Assembly: GCF_004209755.1 (NCBI RefSeq) | Contig: NZ_CP035913.1 | Coordinates: forward strand, 5,084,001 to 5,148,000 | Reading direction: 5' to 3' | From: Pseudoduganella lutea | Lineage (GTDB): Bacteria > Pseudomonadota > Gammaproteobacteria > Burkholderiales > Burkholderiaceae_D | Length of the DNA: 64,000 nt | Part shown: positions 4,480 through 9,014 of the stretch, in pieces | Position numbering within the stretch: the first letter of the stretch is position 1 | How the letters are laid out: each line of letters starts with the position of its first letter | Made by a program: the position numbers and the translations under genes | The notes under the pieces: model-generated | Told to the model about the DNA's origin: nothing | The model's database searches: none | What the model saw: the letters and a program-made list of their open reading frames with translations, nothing else

Positions 4480-5724
4480 TCAGGTTACCGTGCCGCGCGC
4501 GGCGTTCACGTCGTAGGCGTTGTCGTCGAGGATGTGCTTGAGGATCTCCACCGCATCCCAGACCTCGGCAAAGCTGGTGTACACGGGCGTGAAGCCGAAG
4601 CGCATGATGTGCGGCTCGCGGTAGTCGCCGACCACGCCGCGCGCGATCAGCGCCTGCATCACCGCGTAGCCATGCGGATGGGTGAAGCTGACGTGGCTGC
4701 CGCGCCGGGCATGGTCGCGCGGCGTCACGAGGCCGAGCGGGTGGCCGGCGCAGCGCTCCTCGACCAGCGCGATGAACAGGTCCGTCAGCGCCAGCGACTT
4801 GGCGCGCAGCGCCGCCATGTCCGTCTGCGCGAACACGTCGAGGCCGCACTCGACGAGTGCCAGCGACACCACGGGCTGGGTGCCGCACAGCGCGCGGCCG
4901 ATGCCGGCGCACGGCGCGAACGACGGCGCCATCGCGAATGGCGTGGCATGGCCCCACCAACCGGACAGCGGTTGCATGAACGCTCCCTGGTGCCGCTCGG
5001 GCACCCAGATGAAGGCGGGCGCGCCGGGGCCGCCGTTCAGGTATTTATAGGTGCAGCCAACGGCGAAGTCGGCGTTCGCGCCGTGCAGGTCGACCGGCAC
5101 CGCGCCGGCCGAATGGGCCAGGTCCCACACTGTCAGTGCGCCATGTTCGTGGGCGAGCGCCGTCAGCGCGGCCATGTCATGCATGTGGCCGGTGCGGTAA
5201 TTCACGTGCGTCAGCAGCAGCACGGCCGTGTCGGGGCCGAGCGCGGCCGGAATGTCTTCCGGGCTGTCCACCAGGCGCACGGTGTGCCCGCGCCGCAGCC
5301 AGCCGGCCAGGCCTTCGGCCATATAGATATCGGTGGGGAAATTGCTGCGCTCCGTCACGATCGTCGTGCGGCATGGGTCGGCGGCCTGCATGGCCACCGC
5401 GCCGGCCAGTGCCTTGAACAGGTTGACCGACGTGGTATCCGTGACGGCCACTTCGCCCGGCAGTGCGCCGATCAGTGGCGCCAGCTTGCCGCCCAGCCGT
5501 TTCGGCATGTCGAACCAGCCGGCCGTGTTCCAGCTGGTGATCAGGTCGGTGCCCCATTCGCGGGCAATCACATCGGCCGCGCGGGCCAGCGCCGCTTTCG
5601 GGCGCGCGCCCAGCGAATTGCCATCCAAATAGATGATGCCGGCAGGCAGGTCGAAGCTGTCGCGCAGCGGTGCCAGCGGATCGGCGGCATCGCGTGCCAC
5701 GCAATCGGTGCGGGAGATATCCAT
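4480..5724 (-). CDS. kynU: Kynureninase
   Basis: A 414-residue PLP-dependent enzyme that splits L-kynurenine into anthranilate and alanine. Landmarks: YLDGNSLGA near residue 32, [23 protein letters not shown], the Asp of [11 protein letters not shown], the PLP lysine in [16 protein letters not shown], and the C-terminal [11 protein letters not shown]. Fold type I, cytosolic. It is the first gene of a kynU-kynA(-RNase T2) transcript running leftward from the AT-rich intergenic region. The three 15 bp direct repeats 137 bases upstream of its start could be its control site, shared with or instead of flhDC. No KynR-type Lrp regulator is adjacent. Confidence 0.97.
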
Positions 5725-5860
5725 GCTTGCTCTCGTATCAGGTCGTCCGTCGGACGAAGGCGGGAGTGTAGCACGGCAGGGATGTCATATCGGCATCGCG
5801 TTATGTTCGCCATTTCAGAGATTATTGGCGAACCGACATTGATAAAGTTATATGTGAATG

Positions 5861-5901
5861 AATGACAATTGAATAAATGACAGTTGAGTGAATGTCAATT
5901 G
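5861..5901. repeat. Three direct repeats of AATGACAATTG with exact 15 bp period
   Basis: Copies at 5861-5871 (AATGACAATTG), 5876-5886 (AATGACAGTTG) and 5891-5901 (AATGTCAATTG), each one base off the consensus at most. The 15 bp spacing places alternate copies on the same face of the helix. The layout resembles an operator for a multimeric regulator. It sits between the kynU start and the flagellar promoters, so the target gene is not certain. Confidence 0.6.
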
Positions 5902-5957
5902 CTAAAAGAGCCAGCAAAAGTGCGTAAAGAAATCTACAAATTTTTTAAAAGAATTCC

Positions 5958-5984
5958 TAAAGTTCCCGGCCGACCTGCCGTTAC
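5958..5984 (+). promoter_or_regulatory. Sigma-28 (FliA)-type promoter, upstream copy
   Basis: TAAAGTTC at 5958-5965, an 11-base spacer, then GCCGTTAC at 5977-5984. The established enterobacterial FliA consensus is TAAAGTTT-N11-GCCGATAA, so spacing is exact and 14 of 16 positions match. It points toward flhD, 366 bases downstream. It belongs to a module repeated 109 bp further on. Confidence 0.7.
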
Positions 5985-6066
5985 CCCATCCAGATATCCG
6001 GAAAAGCGCCTTTGTTCGTTGCATTGGATGACAGGAAAAAATTCTAAAATTTTTTGCTGATCACCC

Positions 6067-6093
6067 TAAAGTTTCCAGAACGGCTGCCGTTAC
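6067..6093 (+). promoter_or_regulatory. Sigma-28 (FliA)-type promoter, downstream copy
   Basis: TAAAGTTT at 6067-6074, an 11-base spacer, then GCCGTTAC at 6086-6093. The -35 element is a perfect FliA match and the -10 differs at two positions. It lies exactly 109 bp after the first copy. Shared flanks (AAATTTTTT at 5938 and 6047; AAAAGCG at 6002 and 6111) keep the same offset. It is 257 bases upstream of the flhD start. Confidence 0.75.
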
Positions 6094-6184
6094 CGGTTCA
6101 GATGTCGCTAAAAAGCGTCAGCCCGGCATCTTTTTACTGGTGGGATGCAAGGTGTTTTTCGCCCGCCACAACAATCCGCAAAGC

Positions 6185-6247
6185 CGCGCCAGCACTGGCG
6201 CGCCGCCATGACCGCCCTGCGTTTGTCAGACAAACGCTGACAGGGCG
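6185..6247 (+). promoter_or_regulatory. Two strong hairpins in the presumed flhDC leader
   Basis: Hairpin 1: CGCGCCAG (6185-6192) pairs with CTGGCGCG (6195-6202). Hairpin 2: an outer stem CGCCCTG (6213-6219) with CAGGGCG (6241-6247) encloses a perfect inner stem CGTTTGTC / GACAAACG (6220-6236). There is no T-run after them, so they are not a standard terminator. Lying between the promoters and flhD, they may be a structured 5' leader or part of a small RNA. The function is inference. Confidence 0.5.
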
Positions 6248-6349
6248 CGCTCGCTATTTCCCTACCTCAAATACAGACGGCTGCCTCTTCTCGTGCTCGG
6301 GGCCCTACAGCAGAATGTGTCTCAACGGAAACGCTTTGAGGAGCACACA

Positions 6350-6667
6350 ATGACTGCGAACGACATGATGGCCGAGATCCGCGACGCGAATCTCTCCTAC
6401 CTGATGCTGGCCCAGCAGATGATCCGCGCGGACAAGGTCACTGCGATCTTCCGCCTGGGCATCTCCACCGACATCGCCGACCTGATCGAAGGCATGAGCA
6501 ACGCTCAGATCCTGAAACTGGCAGGCGGCAACATGATGCTGGCCCGCTTCCGCTTCGACGACAGCGCCATCCTGGGCATGCTGACCAATTACAACAAGGA
6601 CCGCTCGCTGGCCCAGTCGCACGCGGCGATCCTGATGGCTGGACAGGGCGTCGAAGAAATCGCCTGA
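6350..6667 (+). CDS. flhD: Flagellar master regulator subunit FlhD
   Basis: A 105-residue protein matching FlhD over its whole length: LSYLMLAQQMIRADKVTAIFRLGI near residue 15, then the helical dimer core and LARFRFDD. With FlhC it forms the hexameric activator that turns on class II flagellar genes with sigma-70. The start at ATG 6350 is set by the GAGGAG ribosome site 7 bases upstream and gives the usual MTANDMMAEIRD beginning; a longer in-frame start at 6293 is rejected. flhC follows 39 bases later. Promoters for it appear to be in the 600 bp leader, including two FliA-type sites, which is unusual for a master regulator. Confidence 0.96.
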   Translation: MTANDMMAEIRDANLSYLMLAQQMIRADKVTAIFRLGISTDIADLIEGMSNAQILKLAGGNMMLARFRFDDSAILGMLTNYNKDRSLAQSHAAILMAGQGVEEIA

Positions 6668-6706
6668 GCGCTACACTGCGGACACGAGACGGACGGGAGC
6701 GGGAAC

Positions 6707-7258
6707 ATGAGTAATGCCGGGAAAAAAAGCGTGGTCACGGAAGCACAGGAAATCGGGCTTGCCATCGAGCTGATCAACCTGGGCGCGCGGCTGCAGTTGC
6801 TGGAATCGGAAGTATCGCTGTCGCGCGAGCGCCTGCTGAAGCTGTACAAGGAATTGAAGGGCGTGTCGCCGCCGAAAGGCATGCTGCCGTTTTCCACCGA
6901 CTGGTTCCTGACCTGGCAACCGAACATCCATGCTTCGCTGTTCATCAACATCCACGACTTCCTCGTGCAGCACGCCGGCGCCACCGGCATCCGCGCCGTG
7001 ATGAAGGCTTACCAGCTGTACCTGGAGCAGATGCCGCCGGCGCCGGGCGAAGAGCCGCTGCTGTCGCTGACGCGGGCGTGGACCCTCGTGCGCTTTTTCG
7101 GCAGCCGCATGCTCGAACTGAAGGCTTGCAGGAAATGCCAGGGCAAGTTCGTCGTCAACGGCATGGACCTGAACGGCGATTACCACTGCGGCCTGTGCCA
7201 CATGCCTTCGCGGGCCGGCAAGACCCGCAAAGCCAAAGAAGAGTCCCTCACCGCGTGA
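6707..7258 (+). CDS. flhC: Flagellar master regulator subunit FlhC
   Basis: A 183-residue DNA-binding partner of FlhD. The central part (RAWTLVRFFGSRMLELKACRKC) and the four-cysteine zinc site (CRKC ... CGLC, around residues 135-160) are those of FlhC. The C-terminal tail is basic, typical for the family. Co-transcribed with flhD. Downstream lies an unusual methyltransferase gene before motA, rather than motA directly. Confidence 0.96.
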   Translation: MSNAGKKSVVTEAQEIGLAIELINLGARLQLLESEVSLSRERLLKLYKELKGVSPPKGMLPFSTDWFLTWQPNIHASLFINIHDFLVQHAGATGIRAVMKAYQLYLEQMPPAPGEEPLLSLTRAWTLVRFFGSRMLELKACRKCQGKFVVNGMDLNGDYHCGLCHMPSRAGKTRKAKEESLTA

Positions 7259-7298
7259 CCTTCCTCTACCGTTCCGTGACGGAAAGCCGGGGTGGCGC

Positions 7299-8063
7299 AT
7301 GACGCCAGCCCGGCTTTTTCGTTTGCCGGCCGTGCGCGCGCTGCTGGCGCAGCTCGTGGCTCTGGTGCCCACCGCCGCACTGGCGGTCGCGCTCGACACC
7401 TTCGGCCGCGGCCCCACCTTGCTGGAGGCCGCCGCGCTGCAGGGCGCCATGGCCATGCTGATTACGTGGAGAATCGGCCTGGCACCGTGGTGGCGCATCA
7501 TCCAGCTGCTGTTTCCCGTCGCACTGCTGGCGGCGCTGGGGCTGCAACTGCCGCCGGTGCTGTTCCTCGTGGTATTCGTCGTGTTGCTGGGCTGGTACTG
7601 GTCCACGTTTCGCACCCAGGTGCCGTACTTTCCATCCAATCCGGCCGTCTGGCGTGCCGTCGAGTCCCTGCTGCCGGCCCGGCCCGGGGTGCGGGTGATC
7701 GATGTCGGCAGCGGGCTGGGCGGCTTCACGCTGCACCTGGCGCGGGCCCGGCCGGATGCCGACTGCACCGGCATCGAGCTGGCGCCCGTGCCCTGGCTGT
7801 ATTCGAACTGGCGCGCCCGATTTACCAAAAGCCGCGCACGATTCATCCGCGGCGATTATGAAAAGATTCATTTCGGCGATTATGACGTGGTCTTTGCTTA
7901 TTTATCACCGGCGGTCATGTCGGGCTTATTCGACAAGGCGCGGCGCGAAATGAAAGTTGGCAGTCTGTTAGTGAGTTATGAATTCACTATCCCTGGTTTC
8001 AAACCGGACAAGACCATCCATACCACAGAGGGAGCACCACTACTATTTGTTTGGGTGTTTTGA
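7299..8063 (+). CDS. Membrane-anchored class I SAM-dependent methyltransferase
   Basis: A 254-residue protein. The first ~100 residues are very hydrophobic with about four membrane-spanning stretches (for example LVALVPTAALAVAL and VLFLVVFVVLLGWYW). The cytosolic domain has the SAM-binding motif VIDVGSGLGGFTLHLA from residue ~133, an acidic ribose-binding residue in GIELAP, and a post-motif strand YDVVFAYLSP. The substrate is not recognised. It lies 40 bases after flhC and before motA, same strand, so it may be expressed with the motility genes. The last 200 bases are noticeably richer in A+T than the rest, which might mark a junction. The methyltransferase fold is secure; a role in motility is only suggested by position. 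Confidence 0.8.
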   Translation: MTPARLFRLPAVRALLAQLVALVPTAALAVALDTFGRGPTLLEAAALQGAMAMLITWRIGLAPWWRIIQLLFPVALLAALGLQLPPVLFLVVFVVLLGWYWSTFRTQVPYFPSNPAVWRAVESLLPARPGVRVIDVGSGLGGFTLHLARARPDADCTGIELAPVPWLYSNWRARFTKSRARFIRGDYEKIHFGDYDVVFAYLSPAVMSGLFDKARREMKVGSLLVSYEFTIPGFKPDKTIHTTEGAPLLFVWVF

Positions 8064-8153
8064 TTGGCTTTCTCTTGCGAGCCCGTCTTTCTCACGCTAT
8101 TGTAGTTCCTTGTGGAATTATTTCGCTGTGCTTCTTTATAGGAGATTGCAGGC

Positions 8154-9014
8154 TTGCTATTAATCATTGGTTATATCGTTGTCTGCGCCAGCGTGTTCGG
8201 CGGCTACGCAATGTCTGGTGGACATCTTGCGATCTTGTTCCAGCCATTGGAATTGGTGATGATCGGCGGTGCTGCCGTGGGCGCCCTTTTCGTCGGCAAC
8301 AACAACAAGTCCCTGAAGGCCACGATGGCCGCGCTGCCAACGCTGCTCAAAGGCTCGCGTTATACCAAGGAACTCTACATGGACCTGATGTCGCTGCTGT
8401 TCGACATCCTGTCCAAGGTGCGCAAGGAAGGCCTGATGTCGATCGAAGGCGACATCGAGACGCCGGAGCAGAGCCCGCTGTTCTCCAAGTACCCGTCGGT
8501 GCTGGAGGATCACCATATCGTGGAATTCATGACCGACTACCTGCGCCTGATGGTGTCCGGCAACATGGATGCGTTCCAGATCGAAAACCTGATGGACAAT
8601 GAACTGGAGACCCACCACCACGAGGGCGCCGTGCCGGCGCACGTGATCGCCAAGCTGGGCGATGGCCTGCCGGCCTTCGGTATCGTGGCCGCGGTGATGG
8701 GCGTGGTGCACACGATGGAATCGGTGGGCATGCCACCCGCCGAGCTGGGCCTGCTGATCGCCAAGGCGCTGGTCGGCACGTTCCTCGGGATCCTGCTGGC
8801 CTACGGTTTCGTCGGCCCGCTGGCCAGCCTGCTGGAGCAGAAGCTGGAAGAATCGTCGAAGATGTTCCAGTGCGTAAAGGTCACGCTGCTGGCCAGCCTG
8901 AACGGTTATGCACCGGCGCTGGCGGTCGAATTCGGTCGCAAGGTCCTGTACTCGACCGAACGCCCCACGTTCGCCGAGCTCGAAGACCACATCAAGAAAT
9001 CCAAGTCGAAGTAA
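8154..9014 (+). CDS. motA: Flagellar motor stator protein MotA
   Basis: A 286-residue proton-channel stator subunit with four membrane segments. The sequence aligns from the first residue with E. coli MotA (LLIIGYIVVCASVFGGYAMSGG, then PLELVMIGGAAVGALFVGNN). The cytoplasmic loop contains KVRKEGLMSIEGDIE, where conserved charges contact FliG, and the last two helices carry GDGLPAFGIVAAVMGVVHTM and LVGTFLGILLAYGFVGP with the key prolines. The start is TTG at 8154, supported by AGGAGA at 8140-8145 and by this alignment; no ATG fits. motB follows after 21 bases. Confidence 0.97.
   Translation: MLLIIGYIVVCASVFGGYAMSGGHLAILFQPLELVMIGGAAVGALFVGNNNKSLKATMAALPTLLKGSRYTKELYMDLMSLLFDILSKVRKEGLMSIEGDIETPEQSPLFSKYPSVLEDHHIVEFMTDYLRLMVSGNMDAFQIENLMDNELETHHHEGAVPAHVIAKLGDGLPAFGIVAAVMGVVHTMESVGMPPAELGLLIAKALVGTFLGILLAYGFVGPLASLLEQKLEESSKMFQCVKVTLLASLNGYAPALAVEFGRKVLYSTERPTFAELEDHIKKSKSK

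Follow-up and report, generated by a model that had tools for sequence, protein, structure and literature searches.

Conserved sigma-28-type promoters upstream of flhDC suggest a direct late input to the flagellar master operon in Pseudoduganella lutea and its relatives

The flhDC locus and its duplicated promoter unit

The window analysed here, a 64,000-nucleotide stretch of the Pseudoduganella lutea genome, carries two copies of one promoter unit between kynU, which starts at 5724 on the minus strand, and flhD (6350–6667, plus strand). The name flhD rests on homologues, on neighbouring genes and on general features of the family, and kynU, flhC (6707–7258, plus strand), motA, flgF and flgG carry names given by eye from their translations. 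A strong intrinsic terminator is predicted after flhC on the plus strand at 7284–7316, followed by a T run (−26.2 kcal/mol, or −25.3 by a stricter rule). Among relatives, kynU lies upstream of flhDC in 60 of the 64 loci inspected, a methyltransferase-like ORF follows flhC in all 64, and motA is next in order where the locus is long enough. This methyltransferase-like ORF (7299–8063 in the window) stands between flhC and motA in the family; among order-level loci it is present in L130 and was not found in L131–L136.

Each unit consists of an AT tract, CCTAAAGTTY, 11 bases and GCCGTTAC, with AGAT seven or six bases further on. Promoter 1 occupies 5958–5984 (TAAAGTTC-N11-GCCGTTAC; −35 at 5958–5965, −10 at 5977–5984) and promoter 2 occupies 6067–6093 (TAAAGTTT-N11-GCCGTTAC; −35 at 6067–6074, −10 at 6086–6093), both on the plus strand, and both 27-mers stand exactly where an earlier note on this DNA had placed two FliA-type promoters with N11 spacing. 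With a −35 resembling TAAAGTTT, an 11-bp spacer and a −10 resembling GCCGATAA, both boxes have the features of sigma-28 promoters, as defined by the usual consensus; the scoring matrix came from flgM. The AT tracts, which we take to lie where an UP element would be, are found on the plus strand at 5934–5954 (with AAATTTTTT at 5938–5946) and 6043–6059 (with AAATTTTTT at 6047–6055), and both show raised conservation across 70 loci. Distance from the −10 places the predicted start of transcript 1 at about 5991–5993, with AGATATCCGGAAAAGCG as the predicted initially transcribed sequence (5992–6008, plus strand), and many relatives show an AGATR..GGAAAA-like pattern in this start region. The predicted start of transcript 2 and a terminator-like hairpin (−8.4 kcal/mol, TTTT following) together occupy 6100–6131 on the plus strand. 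The heptamer AAAAGCG occurs at 6002 and 6111, just downstream of the predicted starts, and because of these positions, one that of an UP element and the other just after the start, the AT tract and AAAAGCG are best read as parts of the promoter unit.

Strength and specificity of the sigma-28 matches

The matrix derives from 30 flgM promoters, one of which belongs to this genome. The flgM loci were fetched with this genome's FlgM protein, which matched in 44 of 45 genus genomes; 30 loci were laid out, and in every one the best site lies 74–99 bases before flgM. Scored with this matrix, promoter 1 reaches 27.0 bits and promoter 2 reaches 32.3, the training promoters themselves spanning 26.6–32.3, while the third-ranking site on either strand of the 64 kb scores 10.9 and the top score in 2000 dinucleotide shuffles of 5726–6349, both strands, is 18.9. 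At three or fewer mismatches to the sigma-28 consensus the 64 kb holds two matches against 0.07 expected. Together with the matrix and shuffle scores, this makes a chance origin very unlikely.

The same specificity is seen genome-wide, where the pattern CTAAAGNTNN(11)NCCGTWA has seven matches in 7.5 Mb. Every one lies at a flagellar gene: four precede flgM and the three fliC genes singly, a fifth falls between flgF and flgG in a second flagellar cluster, and the other two are those described here. A reversed-pattern control has one. A stricter pattern gives four matches, two of them at flhDC, with none in the control; looser patterns are unspecific (6 matches versus 5 controls, and 9 versus 28). 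The motif upstream of flhDC is shared with the accepted FliA targets of the genome, flgM and the three fliC genes; the flgM matrix gives the flagellin promoters lower scores, about 18–23 where found. The genome encodes FlgM, and two FliA-type sigma genes exceed the curated cut-off. In −35, N11 and −10 the flgM and fliC promoters of this genome and genus are identical in kind to the flhDC boxes, and in many relatives CAGATCCCGG stands in the start region of flgM as well; those promoters serve late genes, however, whereas the flhDC boxes precede the first operon.

Conservation across relatives

FlhD was matched in 45 of 60 and in 210 of 245 genomes, and loci were laid out for a chosen part of them. 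In a set of 127 loci (repeat copies L137–L140 and the 10-base L141 left out), scanned for boxes of at least 17 bits lying 100–800 bases before flhD, a same-strand box upstream of flhD is present in 99 of the 108 loci whose FlhD identity is at least 65%, with two or more in 83, and in none of the 19 loci below 65%. Over all 127 loci the same stretches hold two minus-strand boxes. Counted by genus handle, 27 of 31 have a box and four do not (g29, g51, g65 and g61, the last with only 89 bases scannable). The nine box-less loci with FlhD identity of at least 65% include all four of g51 and both of g29, and one of the nine, L268, offers only 89 bases to scan. Two boxes are found in all 18 g30 loci. 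Loss of the boxes in close relatives, which would have spoken against function, was looked for and not seen: all 41 same-genus loci, our own included, keep two.

A second set, the best 80 of 272 named loci, partly overlaps the first and is drawn mainly from Pseudoduganella, Duganella, Massilia, Janthinobacterium and Rugamonas. Two or more boxes were found in 79 of these 80 at a threshold of 15, the exception, L189, holding only 292 bases upstream; three boxes occur in eight loci and four in two, both Massilia. The closest named relative by FlhD among these best 80 of 272 is Pseudoduganella umbonata (99%), the record of our own genome possibly being absent.

The pattern of conservation was followed base by base in the 70 of 81 loci (our own plus the 80 named) that have exactly two boxes. 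Mean information is 1.8–1.9 bits in the −35 and 1.6 in the −10, columns that were not wholly free to vary since the loci were chosen with the matrix, although almost no locus failed it. The four bases before the −35 hold 1.5 bits, the AT-tract stretch 0.8–0.9, the 11-bp spacer 0.6–0.7 and sequence farther upstream 0.2. Promoter bases are thus kept while spacer and flanks are kept much less, which looks like selection on promoter function rather than a recent duplication, and the suggestion of the earlier note that the promoter bases are under selection is borne out to this extent. The boxes could in principle be chance or relic matches without function, as their absence from nine of 108 loci might hint; the gap between their scores and that of the third site, the shuffles, the conservation profile, the genome-wide matches and the 99 loci that keep a box leave this explanation with a negligible probability. 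The window boxes are real and conserved, and they are very probably sigma-28 promoters.

Size and spacing of the promoter array

The 109-bp repeat distance given in the earlier note is accurate for this genome, in which AAATTTTTT (5938/6047), the boxes and AAAAGCG (6002/6111) keep a common offset, but does not hold as a general distance, the box-to-box distance ranging from 75 to 178 bp across the 70 two-box loci. In these loci the nearest box lies at −281 to −359 from flhD, and in L221 and L223 four units repeat at 75–78 bp. The 109-bp repeat is one form of an older array, which has one to four units at variable spacing.

Distances between neighbouring boxes (L005–L224) cluster near 75–79, 86, 97, 108, 119 and 129 bp, that is, in steps of about one helical turn. 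The best period is 10.5 bp, with R of 0.47 over 110 collapsed pairs of 181, among which ancestry is shared (jitter null 0 of 5000), and R is 0.19 on 42 unique values. Whole-turn spacing changes were found in 13 of 23 independent pairs (p 0.06), which is not significant once ancestry is allowed for. An array of this kind might serve as a set of bound polymerases or decoys, the boxes binding sigma-28 polymerase without a useful transcript, and both the arrays of up to four units and the spacing steps near 10.5 bp would suit such a role. The promoter anatomy, with its AT tract and conserved start region, and the count of whole-turn changes among independent pairs argue against it, and we regard it as highly improbable.

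The leader transcript

If the boxes are used as predicted, the leaders before flhD would be about 360 nt (box 1) and 250 nt (box 2) long. The fate of such transcripts depends on early termination, for which the window holds the −8.4 kcal/mol hairpin with TTTT, 38 nt past the −10 of box 2, and a looser hairpin farther on (−11.2); L011 and L015 have a terminator-like hairpin at the same place as the window's. A first scan of 33 loci by a loose rule, which took in the inter-box stretch and 190 bases downstream of box 2, gave scattered matches, and 18 of the 33 have a hairpin just before the broken T run TGTTTGT of a palindrome nearer flhD (−6.8 to −15.8 by the loose rule) that fails a stricter rule. 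When whole leaders were scanned by the stricter rule, candidates of at least −8 kcal/mol in stability appeared in 6 of 33 and 9 of 80 loci, their positions varying. A cut-off of −6 raised these counts to 16 of 33 and 25 of 80, and the stretches between boxes gave candidates at this cut-off in 1 of 33 and 4 of 91 cases. No terminator before flhD is conserved in both place and strength among the 33 and 80 leaders, and a scan of the window by another rule found none on the plus strand between 5985 and 6350; RNA 3' ends might instead arise by processing. Although no terminator is conserved, the window has its −8.4 kcal/mol candidate, and some box-2 transcripts may stop early in this genome. Our reading is that the boxes mainly yield flhDC mRNA and that some transcripts end early.

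Terminator-like hairpins, present in the window and in some of its relatives, also fit another possibility, in which the sigma-28 promoters make a short leader RNA ending before flhD, either a small RNA or an attenuated leader, and feedback is post-transcriptional or exerted through regulated read-through, possibly with a negative sign. Most of the aligned genus retains the sequence AGATGTCGC.AAAAAG just downstream of box 2, where three Janthinobacterium rows differ, and several clades have a hairpin after box 1. An inverted repeat, GCGCCAGCACTGGCGC, lies in the leader at 6186–6201 (plus strand), upstream of a putative second promoter, and in 4 of 36 sequences both partners of one of its pairs have changed. 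The stretch after box 2 is moreover not a conserved ORF. Consensus folding yielded 13 pairs of which one is compensatory, which is weak covariation; the window leader folds no better than its shuffles (z 0.41); and a search of 5700–6700 of the window against Rfam gave no family at gathering score, its two matches reaching 15.7 of 49 and 12.5 of 80 bits. These results, and the lack of a terminator at a conserved place and strength in the scans above, lead us to regard a short leader RNA as a less likely principal product, though one to be taken seriously.

Other features of the leader were also surveyed. A 5' hairpin at +1 has a mean z of −1.06 after box 1 (n=66) and −1.07 after box 2 (n=60) versus −0.49 in the flank (n=70), and hairpin positions (192 stems, 247 boxes) are modestly enriched at nucleotide 9, where 33 stems fall, next to a strong edge effect. 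A CsrA-type hairpin with GGA in its loop follows box 1 in some clades and is absent from others. As to a translationally inert leader, accessibility of the start region is predicted to be lower on the long leader at 62 of 80 loci; the differences are small in the rows shown, short-leader values are partly missing, and the comparison was given no weight. A leaderless ORF at 6102 (ATGTCG...) was rejected, since ATGTCG reads ATGTAG in several relatives. The conserved start block, the hairpin and the one compensatory pair are compatible with a role for the leader RNA but do not establish it.

Sigma-28-dependent RNAs offer precedents for such a role. In E. coli these RNAs include FlgO, the fourth of them, and Campylobacter jejuni is not known to carry FlhDC. 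The other three RNAs of E. coli, MotR, FliX and UhpU, feed back on flagellar genes, and UhpU represses a regulator of flhDC (PMC10578931). The MotR promoter described there lies inside flhC, whereas the boxes described here stand upstream of flhD and we found no conserved 3' end. C. jejuni CjNC1 and CjNC4 are paralogous sigma-28-driven units but differ as short RNAs aimed at sigma-54-dependent genes (PMC4626219).

Elements nearer flhD

FliA needs FlhDC, so a further flhDC promoter must exist. The candidate is AAATAC at 6269–6274 (plus strand), a possible −10 of a housekeeping promoter with no clear −35, invariant in all 36 aligned sequences, together with the palindrome GTTTGTCAGACAAAC at 6221–6235; a consensus scan gave no sigma-70 promoter match. 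The palindrome, whose pattern occurs nowhere else in the genome, looks like the operator of some regulator. It is kept in most aligned loci, and in 6 of 36 a TGTAGGA..TCCTAC dyad is found instead. Closer to flhD, the alignments show a conserved leader block, GCAGAATGTGTCTCAACGGAAACG (6310–6333, plus strand), ahead of a GAGGAG Shine-Dalgarno sequence (6338–6343, plus strand). Few non-coding stretches before flhD are as well conserved as the GCAGAATGTGTCTCAACGGAAACG block, which contains a GGA motif that we take to be CsrA-like.

Since both boxes lie upstream of the unique palindrome and the invariant AAATAC block, FliA transcription might enter flhDC without raising FlhDC, or might lower it, through poor translation or through disturbance of the downstream promoter or operator, and the loop would then be neutral or negative. 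Salmonella supplies a precedent, the class 3 transcript there being a poor template for the translation of FliA (PMC4173784). The AT tracts and the arrays of up to four units look like the result of selection for output, however, and we consider a neutral or negative loop unlikely.

A proposed direct loop from FliA to flhDC

In the standard picture FlhDC stands above FliA, and in enteric bacteria export of FlgM from the cell frees FliA. The reading we favour, with a probability of roughly 0.54, is that FliA transcribes flhDC through a long leader, as a direct late-to-early positive loop. The two tandem sigma-28 promoters, each with an AT tract upstream, would fire once FlgM leaves and FliA is free; we infer that transcripts would start near 5992 and 6100, run at least partly through the long leaders into flhD and flhC, where they would be translated, and end at the terminator downstream of flhC. 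FliA would thereby give flhDC a late input gated by assembly, in addition to a separate promoter, perhaps around 6260–6285, that starts the cascade, and the circuit FlhDC to FliA to flhDC would sustain the motile state. The terminator candidates in the window and relatives and the nine box-less loci of 108 count against this reading, as does the Salmonella precedent, since a long leader may go untranslated. The earlier proposal that FliA promoters feed flhDC or a leader RNA is upheld as far as sequence can carry it, the boxes matching the genome's own flgM and fliC promoters. One to four boxes usually stand before flhDC, an arrangement which suggests that completed flagella contribute to the continued expression of their own master operon. 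The terminator after flhC speaks against transcription into motAB-che as the role of the boxes in the window; among relatives such transcription may occur, with a hairpin of −9 kcal/mol or better found in 49 of 80 loci and in some cases inside coding sequence.

Loops from a late sigma factor onto early flagellar genes are known, and P. lutea would provide a variant that acts directly on flhDC. In B. subtilis, late sigma-D transcribes swrA, the top activator, and the early fla/che operon (PD3), forming positive loops (PMC3874003). The two systems are alike in placing a late-sigma promoter upstream of a master gene on the same strand. They differ in that the B. subtilis master regulator, SwrA-DegU, is unrelated to FlhDC, and in that the cited parts of that paper describe one sigma-D promoter per locus, with no array, tested by promoter mutation and deletion. 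In Salmonella the class 3 promoter of fliAZ and the FliZ-YdiV relay let FliA feed back on the cascade, a loop required for bistability that acts on fliAZ and only indirectly on FlhDC (PMC4173784). The E. coli mapping paper PMC4183435 mentions no FliA site upstream of flhDC in the parts available to this comparison, and among the top-ranked results of a literature survey, judged by titles and abstract openings and covering few subscription journals, none describes FliA promoters upstream of flhDC in this family.

If the favoured reading is correct, direct and conserved control of flhDC by FliA would close the flagellar hierarchy into a circle in most of a bacterial family, one of soil and water bacteria, and assembly-gated memory or bistability of motility would be predicted without a FliZ-type relay. 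The family would then offer a natural panel, from zero to four promoters and with lineages that have losses, for how loop strength sets the motile fraction.

Two sigma genes and other sigma-28 boxes

The two FliA-type sigma genes lie at 4.48 and 5.61 Mb (L283, L284, L287, L288), one near the flgM/fliC cluster and the other near the second flagellar cluster, and with one such gene near each cluster either FliA might read the flhDC boxes. It is conceivable, though we think it rather improbable, that the two to four boxes of the family-wide array keep roughly the same helical phase and work cooperatively as a single late input, and that in genomes with two flagellar systems the array is perhaps read by both FliA proteins, either completed flagellum locking the FlhDC programme on.

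Sigma-28 boxes also stand before motA in several related genera (L113, L116, L118, L119, L124 and L142). No such box was found in the window (7900–8154) or, with 15 as the threshold, among the 80 named loci, of which three showed no motA; in the window and these loci alike the flhDC boxes are strong. In the flagellin genes of several relatives (L226, L228–L239), a second sigma-28-like box with an AT tract lies about 86 bp upstream of the fliC promoter, and in L230, L232, L233 and L238 a weaker box on the opposite strand mirrors this second one and faces it.
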